36,520 nt of DNA from a virus. The notes beneath the pieces are model-generated. The model saw nothing but the letters and a program-made list of their open reading frames with translations, ran no database searches and was not told the DNA's origin. This document shows, one piece after another, positions 4,170 through 13,236 of this stretch. The stretch's first letter is position 1; each line of letters starts with the position of its first letter. The DNA is taken from IMG/VR virus record IMGVR_UViG_3300017960_000034, positions 1 through 36,520 of that record; one strand, 5' to 3'. A program made the translations under genes and the position numbers.

Positions 4170-5200
4170 GGCAAATCGCTAGGATGCTACCACCGAGGGG
4201 GTTTCGTGGGGCACGGAATCGCCCTAGAAGTGGGGCTCCTGAGCAGAAATCGCCTCTCCCGCACGATCGCCCGAGTGGGCGACTGAGAGGTCGGGGTCGC
4301 CCGAGATCGTTCAGCAGAGGCGATCTGTGGAGGTCGAAATCTGAGGTCCTCACGATCGACGACGTCGGTCTGCTTCTCCCTGGCGATCAGCTCTTCGTCA
4401 GACACGAGATCGTCGGCCCGCCGTGGAAGTGGCTAGTCGGCTTCCTGATCAGGGTCGCCACGTTCACTCGGAAGGACAAGCGACCGACCGTCGTGAATCA
4501 TGTGGCGACGGTGATCAGGGCGATCAGAGAAGTCGACATCATGTTCATCGGTATGACGGGAGAGCTTGACGCCCCCGAACTCCACGCCTTATCAGAGATC
4601 GACACCTACTACGGGATGGCCGGTCTCGAAATGCATGATGTCGACGGGCGACCGATCGCGATGCCAGCGACACGGGGGCCGATCGTGGACTGGATGATCG
4701 GCGAGGCTCTCGGCAAGGGCGGGTTTCACTACACTCGTCTGCTCGATCGCTACTCGGACACACGTCATTTCTCGATCGCCTTCTGTCGTCATCTCGGGGC
4801 GACCGACGACCACAGGACGAAGATCGTCGAGGCATGTGATTATCTGCGCGACAAGAATGTGACCTATGGCTTCCTGAAGATCGCTGCTCACGTCGGCGAC
4901 TTCGCGCTGACGCGAGTCTGGAATCTCATCGGCGGCAGGAGTGACGTCTACGCCTTTCGGTGGCTCTGTCGACTCGATCGGTATCCGATGTGTTCGTGGT
5001 CATCGCTCTACGTCTACGACAAGGCCGGTCTGCCGTTCGATGTGCCCGTCGAGATCGGGTCGCCCGACGATCTGTGGGACGAATGTCTCGTGAAGACCGA
5101 TGTCTGGATGTGGGGCTATCACTCGCCCGCGCTCGATGACGAGTTCGCACGTGCGACGCGCCGAGCGAGGGCGACCGAGAAAGGAGGAGCTGATGCGTGA
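4163..5200 (+). CDS. Permuted papain-like (YiiX/LRAT-type) peptidase or amidase
   Basis: A 345-residue product if it starts at the GTG preceded by AGGAGGTCATA. From residue 70 it reads like the permuted NlpC/P60 group: LLLPGDQLFVR, then His113 in NHVATVI, and a C-terminal Cys277 in MCSWSSLYVY followed by GSPDDLWD. The His-before-Cys order marks the permuted form; such enzymes cut peptide or amide bonds, often in the cell envelope. The first 66 residues are basic, low in complexity and encoded by structured element A (4221-4352), so the true N-terminus is unsettled; no ATG or GTG lies between 4184 and the conserved domain. It is the first gene of the left plus-strand series. Confidence 0.7.
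   Translation: MARQIARMLPPRGFRGARNRPRSGAPEQKSPLPHDRPSGRLRGRGRPRSFSRGDLWRSKSEVLTIDDVGLLLPGDQLFVRHEIVGPPWKWLVGFLIRVATFTRKDKRPTVVNHVATVIRAIREVDIMFIGMTGELDAPELHALSEIDTYYGMAGLEMHDVDGRPIAMPATRGPIVDWMIGEALGKGGFHYTRLLDRYSDTRHFSIAFCRHLGATDDHRTKIVEACDYLRDKNVTYGFLKIAAHVGDFALTRVWNLIGGRSDVYAFRWLCRLDRYPMCSWSSLYVYDKAGLPFDVPVEIGSPDDLWDECLVKTDVWMWGYHSPALDDEFARATRRARATEKGGADA
4221..4352 (+). repeat. Structured element A (relative of B at 25968 and C at 8690)
   Basis: Begins GCCCTAGAAGTGGGG and contains a 9-bp perfect stem ATCGCCTCT (4249-4257) / AGAGGCGAT (4316-4324) with an inner CGATC (4264-4268) / GATCG (4305-4309). It ends in the palindrome TGAGGTCCTCA (4342-4352). The same plan recurs at 25968-26100 with changed bases that still pair. 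Here it lies inside the apparent 5' end of the peptidase gene. Confidence 0.6.
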
Positions 5201-5384
5201 TCGACAGCGGGGTCGGAATCGACGGCGGCGGCGACCGTTTCTCTGCCGTCTCGGGCTGCACAAGTGGGGGCCGTGGGACATTCAGGCCCACGACTGGCGA
5301 GTGATCGAGAGGCGGTGCCGACGGTGTTCTGCCGTCGGTAGGTTTCGCCAGCCGACAGCGGCGGCGACAGAAAGGAATCGGTGA
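5193..5384 (+). CDS. Small basic zinc-knuckle protein
   Basis: A 63-residue protein: a poly-arginine N-terminus, then FLCRLGLHKWGPW and RRCRRCSAVGRF. The CxxGxHxW ... CxxC arrangement is typical of small phage/prophage zinc proteins (DUF1660-like; family assignment tentative). The ATG at 5193 has AAGGAGGAGCTG directly upstream and overlaps the end of the peptidase gene by eight bases. Role unknown. Confidence 0.7.
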   Translation: MRDRQRGRNRRRRRPFLCRLGLHKWGPWDIQAHDWRVIERRCRRCSAVGRFRQPTAAATERNR

Positions 5385-5728
5385 TGAAGAGAACGATCGG
5401 CCTCGTGGCGGCAGAGATCGAGCGAGACCTACGTCCGACGCTCAAGGGCACTCGTGAACACGAGATATTCAACGTCGTCCACGACGAGTTCGTGCAGCGT
5501 CTCGGGCGTCAGCATCCGGTGATGGCCGACGGCGACGTCCTCGTTCACGTCACGGAGGCCGAGTTCACCGTCCGCTGTCCCGACTGCGGATCCTTCGAGA
5601 CCGGCTCTCTGCCCGTCGGGGACGAGGGGACTCCGACGTTGACACTCGCTGATGTCAGATGTGGCGAGTCCGAGGCAACGCCTACCGAGACCGAGACCGA
5701 GCCGGCTAAGGAGGACGGCGACGAGTGA
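5384..5728 (+). CDS. Hypothetical protein with CxxC motif
   Basis: A 114-residue protein. Residues 60-70 contain RCPDCGSFETG, a single zinc-knuckle half; a further Cys follows near 94. The tail is a Thr/Glu-rich disordered segment (TPTETETEPAKEDGDE). A GTG three bases upstream (5381) is an alternative start; both overlap the previous stop and share the AAAGGAA ribosome-binding site. Function unknown. Confidence 0.65.
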   Translation: MKRTIGLVAAEIERDLRPTLKGTREHEIFNVVHDEFVQRLGRQHPVMADGDVLVHVTEAEFTVRCPDCGSFETGSLPVGDEGTPTLTLADVRCGESEATPTETETEPAKEDGDE

Positions 5729-6009
5729 TCAGGGCGATCGCCACGATCGCCCTGCTGTTGACGAGTGGGGTCATCGTCTCGACGACTCGGATCGGTAGCG
5801 TCGATCATCATGTCGTCGTGATCGGCGTTCTCCATCCGAACAACGAGATCAGGGTCGTCGTGAACGGTGACGAGATCGACGATTCGCCGGTGTGGTGTGA
5901 TTCGACCGGCGTCTTCTCGTTCATCTACAGCGCGGAGTGTCCTTGTCTCGTCGAGATGACCGTGATCTCGCCGGGGCCCGCTGCTCTCTGTGAGGAACAT
6001 GAGCGATGA
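5725..6009 (+). CDS. Small secreted protein
   Basis: A 94-residue protein with a hydrophobic N-terminus (IRAIATIALLLTSGVIV) that looks like a signal peptide or anchor, followed by a beta-rich stretch and four Cys (WCDS, ECPCL, LCEE) that could form disulfides outside the cytoplasm. The GTG at 5725 overlaps the previous stop and follows AAGGAGGACGGCGAC. It resembles the next gene in plan (signal, then beta-rich domain). Possible envelope or exclusion protein; function not known. Confidence 0.62.
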   Translation: MIRAIATIALLLTSGVIVSTTRIGSVDHHVVVIGVLHPNNEIRVVVNGDEIDDSPVWCDSTGVFSFIYSAECPCLVEMTVISPGPAALCEEHER

Positions 6010-6452
6010 AAGGAGTGACGATCGTGCGATTCATCCTGACGACCCTCGCCCTGTTGATGTGCGGGGCCTGCTGTGTGATCGGAGGCCCACTCGAGGACGG
6101 GCCCGAACTGAGTCTGTGCGTGTCGGCAACGTGGGGAGGCGCGACCCCGCCGATCGGATCGACTGCCGCTGTCGACATCTATTCGATGATCGAGGGCACG
6201 GGTCAGTGGACGCCGGTCGTCCTCGACGAGCCCTATCCGATCGTCGTCGCTACGGGGGCTCTCGTCGACACGTTCTGCTTCGACTGGCAGGTGCCCGAGA
6301 ACGGCGATCGGATGACATATCGGTATGAGGTCGAGCTGACGATCGGCGATCAGACCTACTCGCCCGCCGACTATCCCGAACTCGTTTGTGAGTCGGGCGA
6401 ATGGTGGTGGCTCTTCGCTGGTCGAATCCGTTGCTCTGAGCGCGAGCGATGA
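6006..6452 (+). CDS. Secreted, possibly lipid-anchored, beta-rich protein
   Basis: A 148-residue protein: N-terminal signal (FILTTLALLMCGACC) with a weak lipobox-like MCGAC, then an Ig-like beta-rich domain (YRYEVELTIGDQTYS) and a Cys pair near the end. The start is ambiguous: ATG 6006 overlaps the previous gene, whereas GTG 6024 sits eight bases after AAAGGAG and would give a cleaner signal peptide. Together with its neighbours it forms a group of exported small proteins. Superinfection exclusion is one guess, but nothing proves it. Confidence 0.63.
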   Translation: MKGVTIVRFILTTLALLMCGACCVIGGPLEDGPELSLCVSATWGGATPPIGSTAAVDIYSMIEGTGQWTPVVLDEPYPIVVATGALVDTFCFDWQVPENGDRMTYRYEVELTIGDQTYSPADYPELVCESGEWWWLFAGRIRCSERER

Positions 6453-6463
6453 AGGAGGCGATG

Positions 6464-6817
6464 ATGAGTCTGCCCCCGCTGAAACCGAACAGTCAGGGCG
6501 GCCGGCTACTCAAGGCGCTGGTCCTCGGCTGGCCCCGATTCGTCGGAGGTCAACGTGCATTCGGCGACCTCTGGCACAAGGCATCGACGCGTCTCGGTGA
6601 CACACTCGCGCCGAGGGGATTCGAGACCGTCGGTCACAAGTGCCCGAGGTCGGAGGGGAATCATCAGGTCTATCGCTTCGCCAGTGAAGCGATCTATCGG
6701 GAGGCGGCTTTGCTCACTCGCTCGTGGCAGACCGGCGAGAACATCGACGAGCTGCGACGACACGTCAGATCAGAGACACCGATGCCCGAGTTCGATCAGG
6801 GGCGGCTTTCGCTGTAG
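6464..6817 (+). CDS. Winged-helix DNA-binding candidate
   Basis: A 117-residue protein. NSQGGRLLKALVLGWPRFVGGQRAFGDLWHKASTRLGDTL followed by APRGFETVGHK and a GNHQVYRF strand matches the plan of small phage winged-helix proteins (helix, helix-turn-helix, wing), by pattern only. The third of three candidate ATGs (6449, 6461, 6464) was chosen because AGGAGG ends five bases before it. It is the most likely regulator in the left operon. Confidence 0.55.
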   Translation: MSLPPLKPNSQGGRLLKALVLGWPRFVGGQRAFGDLWHKASTRLGDTLAPRGFETVGHKCPRSEGNHQVYRFASEAIYREAALLTRSWQTGENIDELRRHVRSETPMPEFDQGRLSL

Positions 6818-6893
6818 ATGACGAGACACGGTCTGATTCTTGCACTCTCGTCTCTCGTCTCGACGATCGGCGTCGAGGGAGGGGAGGCGAGAC

Positions 6894-7082
6894 ATGAGGT
6901 CGACGTTCGTCATCAGGGCAGAGGCCCGAGAGATCAAGATGCTCGGGGCGATCATGGTCAGGCTGACCGTCAAGGTGATCGGGCTGATTGCCCTGTCGGT
7001 GTGGCAGATCGCACGACACGGGGCCCGCCGCTGCTGGACAGTGATTCAGGACGGGTCACGGTGCGGTCGTGGTTGGCGATGA
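6894..7082 (+). CDS. Small membrane protein
   Basis: A 62-residue protein with one hydrophobic segment (GAIMVRLTVKVIGLIALSVWQIA, about residues 18-40) flanked by Arg residues. The ATG at 6894 follows GGGAGGGGAGGCGAGAC. A competing frame from 6818 begins immediately after the previous stop but soon turns into Gln/Arg/Asp-rich sequence with no ribosome-binding site, so it was not chosen. Function unknown. Confidence 0.55.
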   Translation: MRSTFVIRAEAREIKMLGAIMVRLTVKVIGLIALSVWQIARHGARRCWTVIQDGSRCGRGWR

Positions 7083-7088
7083 TCGTGC

Positions 7089-7117
7089 TGGACACAGGTC
7101 GGCTCTCGTGTTAGAGT
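7089..7117 (+). promoter_or_regulatory. Sigma70-like promoter
   Basis: TGGACA (7089-7094), a 17-base spacer, and TAGAGT (7112-7117), preceded by TCGTGT. The predicted start near 7124 is just before the foldable RNA at 7132-7232. Best plus-strand promoter seen in the genome. Confidence 0.65.
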
Positions 7118-7123
7118 CGGTCT

Positions 7124-7232
7124 GTCGGACTGAACCGGCGACCGAGCCCACGGCAAGGCTGCATGCGCTAGGCCCCGAGAGGGGTTCCCCGAGAGGGGTG
7201 CGATCCTGCCAATGGCCAGCGGTCGCCGGTTC
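7124..7232 (+). ncRNA. Candidate structured non-coding RNA
   Basis: A perfect 12-bp closing stem (GAACCGGCGACC at 7132-7143 with GGTCGCCGGTTC at 7221-7232) encloses 77 bases. Inside are two tandem copies of CCCC-GAGA-GGGG, each a four-pair hairpin with a GNRA-type loop, and an imperfect helix GGCAAGG...GCAT with GTGC...CCTGCC. No open frame with a ribosome-binding site crosses it and a promoter lies directly upstream. It does not fit a tRNA (stem too long, no T-loop or anticodon arm). It may act alone or as the leader of the gene at 7370. Confidence 0.55.
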
Positions 7233-7326
7233 GTCACGTCAGGGGTCATTTCGTCGAGGACCGTCGGGGTGGAGGCCGGCGTCGTCCCGACTCGATCACT
7301 CAACGTCGTCCAGCTCGCGGACGACA

Positions 7327-7356
7327 CGGGGCCCGGCTCTCGCGGGTCGGGCCCCG
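7327..7356 (+). promoter_or_regulatory. Leader hairpin before the gene at 7370
   Basis: A 9-bp perfect stem CGGGGCCCG (7327-7335) / CGGGCCCCG (7348-7356) ends two bases before the GAGGGAGGAAC ribosome-binding region. It may insulate or modulate translation, or end the RNA transcribed from 7124. There is no T-run after it. Confidence 0.5.
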
Positions 7357-7369
7357 CGGAGGGAGGAAC

Positions 7370-7858
7370 ATGAGAGGACTCACGACTCTGCTCGTCGTTC
7401 TGCTTCTGGCGATGGTGCCGGTTTCGGTCGCCCTCGCCGACGACGAGAGTCCAGAGCCCGTTGACGAGGTCGGCACGGCTGCCGACCTCGAGGAGGAGGA
7501 ACGGGACGACTGGACGAATCTGCTCGCACTACGTTCGGGCGGCCTCTACGACATGAGCGTGAAGGAGTGGACGCCCTACGTCACGACCCCTCTGCTTCGC
7601 TACCAGTCGTTGACAGCAGAGGGGGGAGTCGAGATCGACATCGACGAGGACACCGAGGCGAAGGGACTGATCAGTGCCGTGATCGGTCTGACGTTCAATA
7701 TCGGCAGTCTACGGAAGCTCGGTGTCGAGACGATGTGGGCCGATCATGTCGCGATTCATGTCGGGCCCTATGGTCGCTATCGGTTTGAGGACGGCGACTG
7801 GTCCGGCGGCGTGATGGTCAGTGTGTTGGCGACCGACAGAGACGGTGGTCGCCGCTGA
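7370..7858 (+). CDS. Exported protein of unknown function
   Basis: A 162-residue protein with a clear signal peptide (MRGLTTLLVVLLLAMVPVSVALA, likely cleaved before DDESPEP), an acidic linker, and a C-terminal beta-rich domain with alternating patterns (AIHVGPYGRYRFEDGDWSGGVMVSVLATD) that could be a small barrel or periplasmic domain. The ribosome-binding site is GGAGGGAGGAAC. Such a protein makes sense only in a diderm or secreting host. Function unknown; an exclusion or envelope role is possible. Confidence 0.68.
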   Translation: MRGLTTLLVVLLLAMVPVSVALADDESPEPVDEVGTAADLEEEERDDWTNLLALRSGGLYDMSVKEWTPYVTTPLLRYQSLTAEGGVEIDIDEDTEAKGLISAVIGLTFNIGSLRKLGVETMWADHVAIHVGPYGRYRFEDGDWSGGVMVSVLATDRDGGRR

Positions 7859-7869
7859 TGAATCGACGA

Positions 7870-7943
7870 GAGAGGGGTCACTGTCGCCTTCGACGAGAGG
7901 TCCCATTGCCGCTTTCGACGGTGTCTACCTCGTGACCCCTCTC
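7870..7943 (+). repeat. Long-loop inverted repeat between two genes
   Basis: GAGAGGGGTCAC (7870-7881) pairs perfectly with GTGACCCCTCTC (7932-7943). The 50-base loop carries two near-identical words, CGCCTTCGACG and CGCTTTCGACG. It occupies most of the 109-base gap between the stop at 7858 and the next ATG. Attenuator or structured leader are possible roles. Confidence 0.55.
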
Positions 7944-7967
7944 GACTCGACAACGGAGGTCTGAGAC

Positions 7968-8132
7968 ATGAGATCACTCGTGAGGACTCTGTGCGCGGCC
8001 GCTGTGGCCGGGATGCTCGTCGCCCTGGCTGTCTGCTGGGCGGTCGGGGTCTTCGATGATCTGCCCCGAGACCCGTCGACGCCCTCGACGGAGGCGGTTG
8101 ACGAGCTGATCGAGACCGAGGTCGGGGGGTGA
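7968..8132 (+). CDS. Very small membrane or secreted protein
   Basis: A 54-residue frame starting ATG at 7968 with GGAGGTCTGAGAC upstream. It has one hydrophobic stretch (CAAAVAGMLVALAVCWAVGVF, residues 9-29) after a basic N-terminus, then an acidic tail (STEAVDELIETEVGG). It is the last gene before the non-coding region. The strong ribosome-binding site and topology support it; function unknown. Confidence 0.55.
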   Translation: MRSLVRTLCAAAVAGMLVALAVCWAVGVFDDLPRDPSTPSTEAVDELIETEVGG

Positions 8133-8198
8133 TCGGGGGTCTCGGTCTTCATCTGTAGTTCTTCTACTACTCTCGATATAGAAGATTAGTAGTAGTAG

Positions 8199-8245
8199 TA
8201 GGGCCCGTGGACAAGTGGACAAGTGCCTCGGGCCCTAACTTTTAG
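8199..8245 (+). terminator. Factor-independent terminator of the left plus-strand operon
   Basis: A 9-bp perfect stem TAGGGCCCG (8199-8207) / CGGGCCCTA (8229-8237) is followed by ACTTTTAGG. The loop contains both tandem GTGGACAAG words, so DnaA binding and termination could influence each other. Just upstream, competing pairs TCTTCTA / TAGAAGA and CTACTACT / AGTAGTAG could form (8160-8198). Confidence 0.55.
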
Positions 8246-8422
8246 GGGTCTTCCTCGTCGACGCCGCTGTGAACATCTTGGGAACATCTGTGGAGGACGG
8301 TTGATAGATCGTCGATCTCGTTGTCGGGCGGCGATTTACCCACAGATGCCCACAGGTTGTCCACCGACTATTCACCGAGTTATGCACCGATGCTCGTCGG
8401 GGCCCTCGATGCTGCGAGAAGT

Positions 8423-8448
8423 AGCGTCACGAGCGTCACGAGCGTCAC
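8423..8448 (+). repeat. Three short direct repeats, period 9
   Basis: AGCGTCAC occurs at 8423, 8432 and 8441, with related GCGTCA words at 8505, 8578 and 8595. Iteron-like repeats in the non-coding region. Confidence 0.6.
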
Positions 8449-8480
8449 AGACCCGAGTCAGAGGGCGATTCGTGCTCGCG

Positions 8481-8604
8481 GTGCTGACCGTGCTAGCATC
8501 ACGAGCGTCATCAGCGTGACCGACGTCACGGGTCCAAATCGGGGCCCGATTTGGACCCGTCGTGCTGACGGTGCTAGCGTCATCAGCATCACGAGCGTCA
8601 GCGA
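8481..8604 (+). repeat. Two related repeats flanking the 33-bp palindrome
   Basis: Copy one at 8481-8520 and copy two at 8562-8604 share the words GTGCTGAC, GGTGCTAGC or CGTGCTAGC, ATCACGAGCGTCA and TCATCAGC, in slightly different order. Each is centred near GCTAGC (8492 and 8573) and is itself partly palindromic. Confidence 0.55.
8528..8560. repeat. Perfect 33-bp palindrome
   Basis: Sixteen-base arms (ACGGGTCCAAATCGGG and its exact complement) around a single central base. It lies midway between two direct repeats in the origin-like region. It could be a protein-binding site, a cruciform or a strong terminator; no T-run follows. Confidence 0.8.
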
Positions 8605-8689
8605 CCCGACGAGCTCGCGGCGGTCGGGCCGAAATCGGGCTCGGAGGCGGGGCAATCGTGGGTCTCTCGCTAACGAGGGCGGGCACCAG

Positions 8690-8766
8690 TGAACATCGGG
8701 GGCTGTGTCGGTGTGTCGGGTCGTCTGACGCCGAGATCGTCGCTCACAGGCGATCTATGGAGGTCG
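8690..8766 (+). repeat. Structured element C (relative of A and B)
   Basis: Bases 8730-8766 match element A at 4300-4336 in about 30 of 37 positions (CGAGATCGT...CAGGCGATCTATGGAGGTCG), and the GTCGGTGTGTC at 8707-8717 matches element B. A stem is possible between ATCG...CTGTG (8695-8707) and CACAG.CGAT (8745-8754). The CCCTAGAAG start seen in A and B is missing. Confidence 0.45.
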
Positions 8767-8779
8767 GCGGGGGTCGGAA

Positions 8780-8816
8780 CGGGCCCGATCGGTCTGATTC
8801 GGGGGGATCGGGCCCG
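8780..8816. repeat. Perfect 11-bp inverted repeat
   Basis: CGGGCCCGATC (8780-8790) and GATCGGGCCCG (8806-8816) with a 15-base loop. It lies between element C and the endolysin gene end. Operator or structural role unknown. Confidence 0.6.
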
Positions 8817-8848
8817 AGAGAGAGGTCGACGAGTGGGGCGATCACGTC

Positions 8849-8875
8849 TCTGAGGGCCTCTGTCGAGGTCTCAGA
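8849..8875 (-). terminator. Hairpin after the endolysin gene
   Basis: TCTGAG (8849-8854) with CTCAGA (8870-8875) and CCTC (8857-8860) with GAGG (8865-8868), loop TGTC. It abuts the endolysin stop and is the likely end of the minus-strand transcript. No T-run. Confidence 0.45.
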
Positions 8876-9367
8876 TCACGAATAGGCGCGGTTCATCCAT
8901 CCCTCGGCGAACGGGGCGAAGCCCTCGTCACGGGCGAGGACGAGACGATAGTGACTGGCGGCCTCTGACCGGAGGGCCGCAACGAGGGCGAGTTCGCACG
9001 TCCCGGCGACACCGCTTGCGGTCTCAGGGCCGATGACCCCGTCGATCGAGACGAGGATCCCGCACGATCGAAGGGCACGTTGGAGGCAGACGACGCCCGC
9101 TTTCAGACCCATGTTCACGGCGAGATCGAACGTCTTCGTGGCGATCTTCTCGGGCAACATATCGAAGTTCCGACCCTGCCAGTGATGGGTCCAGTAGATT
9201 TCGATCGCGTCATCGCGGGTCAGGTTCTCGATGTCGACCTCGGGGTGCGACCTCGACGAGATGCCGAAGTTCGTCGCGCCGCCGGGGTCGGTCGGGTGAT
9301 CGACATAGCCGCCCTCGTGATCGAGAACGACTTCGATCGCACGGTTGAACAGCTCTCGACTTGTCAT
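8876..9367 (-). CDS. Endolysin, GH108-type N-acetylmuramidase
   Basis: Cuts peptidoglycan glycan strands at lysis. The 163-residue product has the GH108 signature: LDHEGGYVDHPTDPGGATNFGIS, with the likely catalytic Glu18 in HEGGY, and a C-terminal peptidoglycan-binding segment around SIDGVIGPETASGV. Length is usual for the family. No signal peptide is seen, so export should depend on a holin. Known members are mostly from phages of Gram-negative bacteria, which supports that host type. The ATG at 9367 overlaps the stop of the upstream membrane-protein gene and has GGAGAGAGAGAC ahead. Confidence 0.9.
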   Translation of the reverse strand: MTSRELFNRAIEVVLDHEGGYVDHPTDPGGATNFGISSRSHPEVDIENLTRDDAIEIYWTHHWQGRNFDMLPEKIATKTFDLAVNMGLKAGVVCLQRALRSCGILVSIDGVIGPETASGVAGTCELALVAALRSEAASHYRLVLARDEGFAPFAEGWMNRAYS

Positions 9368-9723
9368 TGTCTCTCTCTCCGTAGTGTGGCGACCTCGACT
9401 CTCAGTTCCCCGAGGACCCGTGCCAGCTCGCCGTCTCGTGTTCTCTGCTCTGTCCGTCCGTTGTTCATCGCGTCGATGCCACGTTTGACGTCGAGCAGAA
9501 CATCGCGCACGTCCTCGAGCGAGACGTTCCCCGTGGCGATCGGGCAGATCAGACGCAGCTCGTCGAACTTCGGCGTGCAGGAACAGTCGTTGCCGTTCTT
9601 GCGGTCAATGAGTCGTCGGATCGTCTCGACGGCTTTCAGGGCGAGGAAGACCGCGATGACGAGAGCAAGGGCGATGAGACCGACTGGTCCGAGGGCGTTC
9701 GCAGATTCTACAATCGAGTCCAT
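9364..9723 (-). CDS. Membrane protein, holin or spanin-type candidate
   Basis: A 119-residue protein. One strong membrane segment (VGLIALALVIAVFLALKAV, residues 14-32) is followed by a soluble helical domain with a Cys pair (DCSC) and a coiled-coil-like C-terminus (ELARVLGELRVEVATLRRERQ). Position directly before the endolysin, with ATGA overlap, argues for a lysis role. A single N-terminal membrane helix plus coiled coil also fits an inner-membrane spanin; no outer spanin frame was found in it. Confidence 0.6.
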   Translation of the reverse strand: MDSIVESANALGPVGLIALALVIAVFLALKAVETIRRLIDRKNGNDCSCTPKFDELRLICPIATGNVSLEDVRDVLLDVKRGIDAMNNGRTEQRTRDGELARVLGELRVEVATLRRERQ

Positions 9724-10115: not shown

Positions 10116-11134
10116 CCCGTCAATCTCCTTGCGTTCCGCGTGCCCTCGGTCAGTTCAGAGCAGTCGATCGTCCTCACGTCGACTGCGACAGCTCTCGACG
10201 CAACGTGTGACGCGGCGACCGACCGAGTCGCCGAGTGTTGCGCCCACGGCGGAATATAGATCACACCAGCGACGGCAAGAAGACCCTCGGCGATCAATGT
10301 CGCCACGCCGACGATTTCGAGGACCGCGCCGCCCTCGAGGATGCCTTCACCGATCGCGGTCGCCGCCCCGAGTCGCTCGACGAGGCCGCCGCCCTCGAGG
10401 ACGCCTTCTCCGGTCGCGGTCGCCGCCCCGAGTCGCTCGACGAGGCCGCCGCCGTCGAGGACGCCTTCTCCGGTCGCCGTCGCCGCTCCGACAGCCTCGA
10501 CGTTGGCGGCACAAGAGCAGACGCCCTCGCCTGTGATTGTGGCCGACCCTGCCGCTTCGAGGTTCCCTGCTGCCTCGGTGAGCCCCTGACCGACGAGTTC
10601 GGCACTCGGCATCGAATAGACGATTCGGAGCTGACATTTCGAGAAGGTCTGGTTGAAGTCGACTCCCCAGGAGAAGTCGCCCGTGCCCTGCGTGCTGTCG
10701 TCCCACACGCGAACGTCCGTCTGACCGCCGGGAACGATGGCGGCGATTCCGACCGACCCGAGACTAATCAGCTGACCGCCGGTAGGTTTCGCGTAGATCG
10801 TCGCCGCGAGGGTGCCACCGTTCCACTCGCCGGCATCCCCGTCGAGAGTGGTGCCGATGAACTCGCCGATGGAGAACTTGCAGACGTAGTATTGCGGGTC
10901 CCCGTAGGGCTGACTACGTCGCTTCACGACGAGGAATGAGACCGACGTGATCTCTGCTTCGGCGGGGACCGCCGATGTATCGAAGGCGAAGTAGGCGCGC
11001 CAGTAGGTCGGCCCGAACGCACTCTCGCCTGTCTTGCAGTTCGCCCAGCCGGTCGCCGCCGTGAAGACGCTGCTGGCGAGAGTGATCTTCCCGCTTCGTC
11101 CGTCGATGAAGTTAGCGTTGTGCAGATAGAGCAT
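10112..11134 (-). CDS. Tail-fibre-like protein with a 20-residue repeat array
   Basis: A 340-residue protein. Residues 1-175 form a beta-rich domain (YWRAYFAFDTSAVPAEAEITSVSFLVVKRR...) reminiscent of DNRLRE or carbohydrate-binding modules. Residues about 188-285 hold five copies of a 20-residue unit of the type LERLGAATATGEGVLEGGG, encoded by 60-bp DNA repeats. The C-terminus is a separate small domain. A repeat shaft with a globular head suggests a receptor-binding fibre or appendage. The ATG lies inside one arm of an inverted repeat (11132-11194), which may limit translation. Confidence 0.62.
   Translation of the reverse strand: MLYLHNANFIDGRSGKITLASSVFTAATGWANCKTGESAFGPTYWRAYFAFDTSAVPAEAEITSVSFLVVKRRSQPYGDPQYYVCKFSIGEFIGTTLDGDAGEWNGGTLAATIYAKPTGGQLISLGSVGIAAIVPGGQTDVRVWDDSTQGTGDFSWGVDFNQTFSKCQLRIVYSMPSAELVGQGLTEAAGNLEAAGSATITGEGVCSCAANVEAVGAATATGEGVLDGGGLVERLGAATATGEGVLEGGGLVERLGAATAIGEGILEGGAVLEIVGVATLIAEGLLAVAGVIYIPPWAQHSATRSVAASHVASRAVAVDVRTIDCSELTEGTRNARRLTG
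10315..10560 (-). repeat. 60-bp tandem repeat array in the fibre gene
   Basis: About four copies with exact 60-base period; the middle two (10341-10400 and 10401-10460) differ at only a few positions, the outer ones more. All are in frame. Copy number could vary by slippage. Confidence 0.85.
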
Positions 11135-11625: not shown

Positions 11626-13236
11626 CTATCGTGTGGGCTGTGGGCTAACCGAGACGAGACGACGGGTCACGTCGTTGCTCGTCATCACATGATCCCGGCC
11701 GTCGCCGTTGCCGCCGCCGGCTGCCTCTTCGGCGGCTGCCTCGATCTGCGTCTCGACTTCGGAGGCCGTGACCGGCTCTTCCTTCGGTGCGCCCCCGTCG
11801 ATCTTGATTCCCCATTTCTCGGCGAGATCGAGTTCACGCCTGAGCTGTCGGAAGACGTCCTCGACATCGAGACCACGTTCCGCGAGGACCTCTGCTCGGG
11901 TGCCGAGTCCGTTTTCGATCGAGAGGACCGCGCCCTTCGCCGCCTTCTCGGGGTCGATCCACGCCCATCCTCGAGGACGATGTTCGACCTCACGATAGCG
12001 GTCGGGATTCTGGGAGGGGAGGCGAAGCTTGCGGGTCAGGAGAGCCATCGAGAGCCACACGTCATATAGCGGGACTCGCCACATCTCGATGAAGTCGTTC
12101 TGAATCCCTCGCCAGTCGTCTCTCTCGACGAGAGCGAAGCTCCGCATCGACGAGTAGCTGACGCCGCGGGCGTCGTTGGCGAGGACGTTGTAGAAGACGC
12201 CTAGGCCCGTGGCGACCTTGCGGGCCATCTGCTCGACGAAGGCCCCGAACTGCCCCGTCGGGTGATCTGGCGACCAGCCGTTGAACTCGTATCCCTCAGG
12301 CACGATCTCGATCGAGCCGGGATTCGCCTCGATCATCGCCGGGTCCTTCTCGCCGGCGAGGTCGGGCCCGAGTGAGTCGGCCCGCTTCTGGAGAAATCCC
12401 ATCTTGGCAGCGGCGACTCTCGCAGCGACGGCCTCGGATTCCTCGTAGGCGTCGAGCATGTGCGCGGGCACCATGATCGAGTGGACCCACGTCACGCCTC
12501 GGGTCTGATTCACACGATCGGGATCGTAGAGATGAATCATCTCGCTGGCGGGGACGAAGTATCGCTCGCGGATCACTGTCATCGACACCGACGAGGGCTT
12601 TGTCCAACACCAGAAACCGACGGGCCTCGACAGCTCGTCGACCTCGACTCCCATTCTGATCTCGTTCTGACCGTCACGGGCGGGTCGGTTCAACCGTTCG
12701 TCGATTAGATCGGCGTCGATCGCTTGCAACGCGAGCCCGAAGGGATTCCCCTCGACGCCACGCCACAGACGGACAAACGTCTCGCCGTCGCAAGCGACGG
12801 TCTTCAAGATCAGTTGCTCGAAGCGTCTAAGAGAGAGCTTGCCGTCGAGTGTGACGGGCTTCCGCGCCCACGTTCGCCAAGCCCGTTCGATCTCGTCGTT
12901 GACAGCGGTGTCGAGAACGAAGGTCTCGCCCTCTTCGCCCTGGCTCGGTCTCGTGACGAGAGCCTGTAGGGTGATCCCCTGTGAGCCGATGACGTTGTTT
13001 CTGAGCAGACGGAAGTAGCGTTTGATGTAGCTGTTGTTGCGAGCGAGTTCGCGAGCCCGCGCCCTCAGTCGTCGGATGTCGCCTTTGATCTCTTCATCGG
13101 CAGAGCGAGAGGCGGCGATCCAGTCGAGCAGAAGACGATTGCTCATCGCGCCCTCGAAGGCCGTTCGATTCTGACCTCGGGCCTCTCGCCAGCCGAGACG
13201 AAATGCGCGGGCGATCCTCTGTCGGAACGGTCTCAT
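11626..13236 (-). CDS. Portal protein, lambda family
   Basis: Forms the dodecameric ring at the capsid vertex for DNA entry and exit. The 536-residue product starts MRPFRQRIARAF and has the lambda-portal hallmarks: ARARELARNNSYIKRYFRLLRNNVIGSQGITLQ near the N-terminus, FVRLWRGVEGNPFGLALQAIDADLIDERLN, VPASEMIHLYDPDRVNQTRGVTWVHSIM, LGVFYNVLANDARGVSYSSMRS and WIDPEKAAKGAVLSIENGLGTRAEVLAERGLDVEDVFRQLRREL. The ATG at 13236 overlaps the stop of the upstream gene, so a longer upstream frame was rejected. It lies on the opposite strand from the terminase and capsid genes, which is unusual. Confidence 0.92.
   Translation of the reverse strand: MRPFRQRIARAFRLGWREARGQNRTAFEGAMSNRLLLDWIAASRSADEEIKGDIRRLRARARELARNNSYIKRYFRLLRNNVIGSQGITLQALVTRPSQGEEGETFVLDTAVNDEIERAWRTWARKPVTLDGKLSLRRFEQLILKTVACDGETFVRLWRGVEGNPFGLALQAIDADLIDERLNRPARDGQNEIRMGVEVDELSRPVGFWCWTKPSSVSMTVIRERYFVPASEMIHLYDPDRVNQTRGVTWVHSIMVPAHMLDAYEESEAVAARVAAAKMGFLQKRADSLGPDLAGEKDPAMIEANPGSIEIVPEGYEFNGWSPDHPTGQFGAFVEQMARKVATGLGVFYNVLANDARGVSYSSMRSFALVERDDWRGIQNDFIEMWRVPLYDVWLSMALLTRKLRLPSQNPDRYREVEHRPRGWAWIDPEKAAKGAVLSIENGLGTRAEVLAERGLDVEDVFRQLRRELDLAEKWGIKIDGGAPKEEPVTASEVETQIEAAAEEAAGGGNGDGRDHVMTSNDVTRRLVSVSPQPTR

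Follow-up and report, generated by a model that had tools for sequence, protein, structure and literature searches.

To our knowledge, few structured regulatory RNAs from phages of uncultured bacteria are known. Candidate RNAs of bacteria and metagenomes have been collected by comparative genomics (PMC2864571; PMC8040213), and these resemble the element described here in their intergenic position, covarying stems and conserved loops; none of those motifs that are deposited in Rfam matches it, and the element comprises two members from uncultured phages. The phage small RNAs OOP, c4, DicF, 24B_1 and ipeX are likewise short phage RNAs, of which ipeX and DicF are derived from longer transcripts of the phage and c4 depends on its folded structure (PMC12197685). 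These RNAs are largely antisense (PMC12197685), whereas the clamped conserved loops of the present element suggest recognition by a factor. Comparable in another respect are the control elements of T4-type phages, structured segments of phage mRNA with cis-acting control over processing, decay or translation (PMC3014915); the comparison with these was made via Rfam only.

The window, i.e. the whole stretch of 36,520 nt analysed here, is an IMG/VR phage contig (IMGVR_UViG_3300017960_000034) encoding a GpA-type terminase. A sequence-only reading had proposed a new structured RNA in this contig, and the proposal is upheld by compensatory changes in a related phage, L028 (IMGVR_UViG_3300009494_000026), and by the absence of a match in Rfam release 15 (4227 RNA families), the library in which catalogued phage and bacterial structured RNAs are expected: no family reached the gathering cut-off for either phage, and permissive scans returned only chance matches of the miRNA and snoRNA type. 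None of the known riboswitch models matches, and a tRNA identity was rejected. DNA similarity searches in isolated phages gave only chance matches in coding genes. The element is a candidate new RNA motif of an established general type, the phage structured RNAs.

Searches of IMG/VR with the tandem-hairpin pattern gave no match, while scans with the core pattern returned, among the matches listed, L028 and chance matches in coding genes that do not have the closing stem. A pattern scan of genome contigs yielded 17 chance matches, and covariance model R1, run under strict filters on a sample of 790 genomes from two phyla that may not be the host's, yielded none, a result of little weight. A third member was not found in the IMG/VR pattern scans, the genome contigs, the neighbour-protein scans or the 790 genomes. 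The covariance model was built from the window and L028 pair, so its scores on these two sequences are circular.

Structure and conservation of the element

The element of about 105 nt is a conserved structured RNA of the + strand (Table 1). Its closing stem P1, originally proposed as 12 perfect pairs about 15 bases behind a promoter, has 13 perfect pairs beginning 14 nt after the -10 hexamer, and past one bulged T a GAC/GTC extension carries the pairing to the outer limits of the element. Going inward from P1 there is first a 1x3 loop (A/CAG), then a GCC/GGC helix, next a 3x3 loop (CAC/AAU) and a GG/CC helix, followed by a CAAG strand and two hairpins. The segment 7132-7232 folds at -57.9 kcal/mol compared to -42.6 +/- 3.7 kcal/mol for shuffled sequences (z -4.11; 0 of 200 as stable), and the longer stretch 7089-7260 gives a z of -1.70. 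Stability alone is insufficient as proof of the element, because other stretches of the window rank as more stable when longer windows are scanned. Similarly, the CCCC-GAGA-GGGG word is weak evidence by itself, since chance alone would give 0.67 occurrences in the window when one mismatch is allowed. The hairpin overlapping the -10 hexamer, which the sequence-only reading had missed, would form only in read-through transcripts and was not found in the L028 homologue.

Table 1. Features at the RNA locus of the window
Feature	Position	Strand	Basis or remark
Sigma-54-like site GG-N10-GC, GGTCTGATTCTTGCA	6829..6844	+	about 50 nt 5' of p6894
p6894, gene of a 62-aa membrane-helix protein	6894..7082	+	strong Shine-Dalgarno (SD)
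Sigma-70-like site TGGACA-17-TAGAGT	7089..7117	+	9/12; -35 at 7089-7094, -10 at 7112-7117; TG before -10
13-bp hairpin overlapping -10	7094..7125	+	
Structured RNA element	7128..7235	+	fold and covariation with L028
P1 5' arm, 13-bp closing stem, GAACCGGCGACCG	7132..7144	+	fold, covariation
Conserved 5' core AGCCCACGGCAAG (P2, Y-A-C loop, P3, CAAG)	7145..7157	+	12/13 bases identical in L028
Hairpin 1, GCCCC-GAGA-GGGGU	7172..7185	+	GNRA hairpin, kept in L028, one compensated pair
Hairpin 2, CCCC-GAGA-GGGG	7187..7198	+	longer, different hairpin in L028
Conserved 3' core CCAATGGCCAG (P3', A-A-Y loop, P2', CAG bulge)	7209..7219	+	10/11 bases identical in L028
P1 3' arm, CGGTCGCCGGTTC	7220..7232	+	fold, covariation
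13-bp G+C-rich hairpin	7327..7356	+	directly 5' of the p7370 SD
p7370, gene of a 162-aa protein, likely downstream cistron	7370..7858	+	SD-led; signal peptide, beta-strand-rich domain

The second member was reached via terminase-related contigs, the RNA being first spotted by reading the L028 locus, where the same fold lies at 10317-10423 (z -4.1). Among the 12 aligned pairs of P1, seven have changed on both sides and five are unchanged; there is no broken pair and no one-sided change. The random substitutions in both arms that the earlier reading had named as speaking against an RNA were looked for, and compensation was found instead. Over the whole element eight pairs have changed on both sides and none of the 22 is broken (two sequences). 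If changes in the arms are independent, the chance that the same seven of 12 positions change and still pair is about 4e-6, and when the partner columns are slid as a control, pairing drops from 100% to 22-57%. The core is nearly invariant (22 of its 13 + 11 bases identical); at the two variable positions, which lie opposite each other, C and U are exchanged. It is this compensated stem, together with the identity of the core, that establishes the conservation at the RNA level. In a search by sequence alone, nhmmer with the window element ranked L028 first, at an E-value of 0.23 that is not significant.

Both CCCC-GAGA-GGGG hairpins pointed out by the earlier reading are present (7173-7184 and 7187-7198). 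Their interpretation as tandem GNRA docking sites fails, because the first alone is conserved: hairpin 1 differs in L028 by a GAGA to GAAA loop and by one pair, C-G to U-A, while the place of hairpin 2 is taken by a GCCC...GGGC hairpin. The strand is assigned from pairs that can form only in an RNA of the + strand, namely the U-G of L028 at the ninth pair of P1 and a G-U in hairpin 1 of both phages, and an RNA from the antisense strand was rejected on this ground. At 10335, within the L028 RNA, there is a sigma-54-like word that the window does not share; it was taken as chance.

Genomic setting and promoter-like sites

The element lies in a gap of 287 nt between the SD-led genes p6894 and p7370, and, as had been noted from the sequence, no gene fits this stretch: the ORF 7212-7373 starts with an ATG within the RNA that is not kept in the L028 homologue. 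From the RNA to p7370 there are 135 nt on the same strand. The L028 copy follows one ORF by 20 nt and precedes the next start codon by about 20 nt and its SD by about 10 nt. Both copies thus lie directly before an SD-led cistron of the same strand, yet not before the same gene, the downstream cistron being p7370 in the window and an unrelated small membrane ORF in L028. In this clade of phages the RNA is part of an operon of small membrane proteins. Homologues of p6894 were recovered by tblastn in L028 and L164 and by direct reading in L160 and L163, the relatives L160, L163 and L164 having been reached via a second conserved protein. Homologues of p7370, for which no family match was found, are present in the same four phages; its predicted structure shows a beta-strand-rich domain (mean pLDDT 63), and as the sole query in a protein scan it gave no relatives.

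The promoter-like site proposed from the sequence is present and is the only + strand site of at least 9/12 across the 36.5-kb window. Upstream of the L028 RNA no sigma-70-like site was found. Similarly placed sites occur in the gaps before the p7370 homologues of L160 (ATAACA-17-TAGACT) and L163 (TTGACT-17-TAGGCT), each the sole site of at least 8/12 in its gap, with 0.06-0.19 expected per gap. The L160 site precedes a leader that folds strongly (z -4.7) and has a 13-bp closing stem of its own, with the p7370 homologue behind it, while the L163 leader exceeds shuffled sequences in stability only slightly (z -1.9). The window core is missing in both leaders, which may therefore be unrelated to the window RNA structure; the core was not found in L160, L163 or L164 even with filters off. 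Furthermore, in L164 p7370 directly follows p6894 with no room for a leader, and in L028 the RNA copy sits elsewhere, not before p7370, showing that the leader is dispensable for p7370.

A sigma-54-like site (GGCTCG-N4-TTGCAT type) precedes the first small ORF of the gene block by about 50-75 nt in six related phages including the window (L160 9185, L163 7480, L164 16322, L023 9103, L028 10099). No better site of this kind exists in the contigs of L160, L163, L164 and L023, and L028 and the window have one in the corresponding position; the site is strong in L160, L163 and L164 (0 to 0.07 expected) and weaker in the window, where by itself it means little (13 sites at least as good compared to 13.5 expected). 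Because the site recurs at the same place across the relatives, the operon may be read from there, with the RNA lying between cistrons. No intrinsic terminator follows the element within 5000-9500, and its transcript may have a Rho-type end.

Hairpins of at least 8 bp ending 5-45 nt before SD-led ORFs are frequent in the relatives (4 of 14 ORFs in L160 and 6 of 17 in L164, compared to about one expected), a four- to sixfold excess of G+C-rich hairpins before starts. Strong examples before SD-led starts are those listed at 6870, 7557, 8428 and 9215 in L160 and at 12458, 13170, 13978 and 15556 in L164.

Possible roles of the element

The reading that we favour, tentatively and with nearly even chances of being right, is that the RNA is a cis-acting leader or intercistronic segment whose core loops are bound by a factor and which thereby sets the output of the downstream cistron. 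It is favoured because no terminator follows the RNA and an SD-led cistron comes next on the same strand, and because the L028 copy stands between two cistrons without a sigma-70-like site. The mRNA in question would encode small phage envelope proteins, with the RNA as its 5' leader or lying between its cistrons, and its transcription would start either at the window's sigma-70-like site or at the sigma-54-like operon promoter farther upstream. The G+C-rich clamp P1 would hold out the A/CAG and YAC/AAY loops, the CAAG strand and one GNRA hairpin. That conserved loops are held by a freely evolving clamp suggests a recognition site, most likely for an RNA-binding protein or a nuclease- or ribosome-associated factor, and binding or processing at this site would alter the stability or translation of the next cistron, i.e. 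p7370 or the small membrane ORF in L028. The element is a poor fit to a regulator of a single gene, since the downstream cistron differs between the two phages. It could represent a new, portable class of phage riboregulators, with a conserved internal-loop receptor to which a small ligand or a protein of the phage or host would bind, placed before varied envelope-protein cistrons in a sigma-54-like operon, a proposal that we consider unlikely as it stands. If true, a conserved core module that changes cistrons would offer a new and tractable case of RNA-protein or RNA-ligand recognition. The reading of a single phage genome can reveal real RNA families with one catalogued relative.

The main rival to the cis-acting leader is a free small RNA acting in trans on a protein or RNA, made from the 7089-7117 promoter or cut from the operon transcript. 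An independent small RNA was the original proposal, and the lone 9/12 promoter just upstream of P1 agrees with it, as it would place the 5' end at the closing stem or within it; the differing gene neighbours in the two phages are also possible for a self-contained RNA. However, no intrinsic terminator lies downstream, the L028 copy sits between close ORFs and is not preceded by a sigma-70-like site, and both copies are found in co-directional gene clusters near cistrons. We therefore hold this possibility to be doubtful, if still a real contender.

The RNA could also be an unspecific G+C-rich stem whose sole effect is to protect mRNA ends or to stop read-through, comparable to the hairpins that stand before ribosome-binding sites elsewhere in the clade. 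Such hairpins are over-represented in L160 and L164, and the window has one at 7327-7356; yet this usual hairpin before p7370 is thus already present, and a mere barrier would not hold 22 of 24 unpaired or short-helix bases while its long stem turns over, which makes this explanation improbable. Finally, a palindrome at the DNA level or by chance, or a coding stretch without RNA function, would be in keeping with a membership of two, the non-significant nhmmer search and the many inverted repeats of the window. Against this stand the seven stem pairs changed on both sides and the G-U pairs, which fit RNA, and no reading frame is common to both copies across the whole element, a short resemblance in one frame arising because the core bases are shared. 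This last explanation is very improbable indeed.

Other features of the window

Genes between 31951 and 35418 resemble, by eye, QueD, QueE, FolE, QueC and a DpdA-like protein, the DpdA-like ORF having no match in a Pfam scan; the likeness of these candidate genes suggests a preQ0-type DNA modification. The noncoding region 8160-8400 contains TAGTAGTAGTAGGGCC and many TTATCCACA-like words (DnaA-box-like) and is shared with L028 12850-13080, possibly as a replication origin. It is followed at 8423-8605 by tandem copies about 81 bp apart and about 70% alike, with a perfect 16-bp inverted repeat at 8528-8560; no other part of the window has so low a folding z-score (-5.2).
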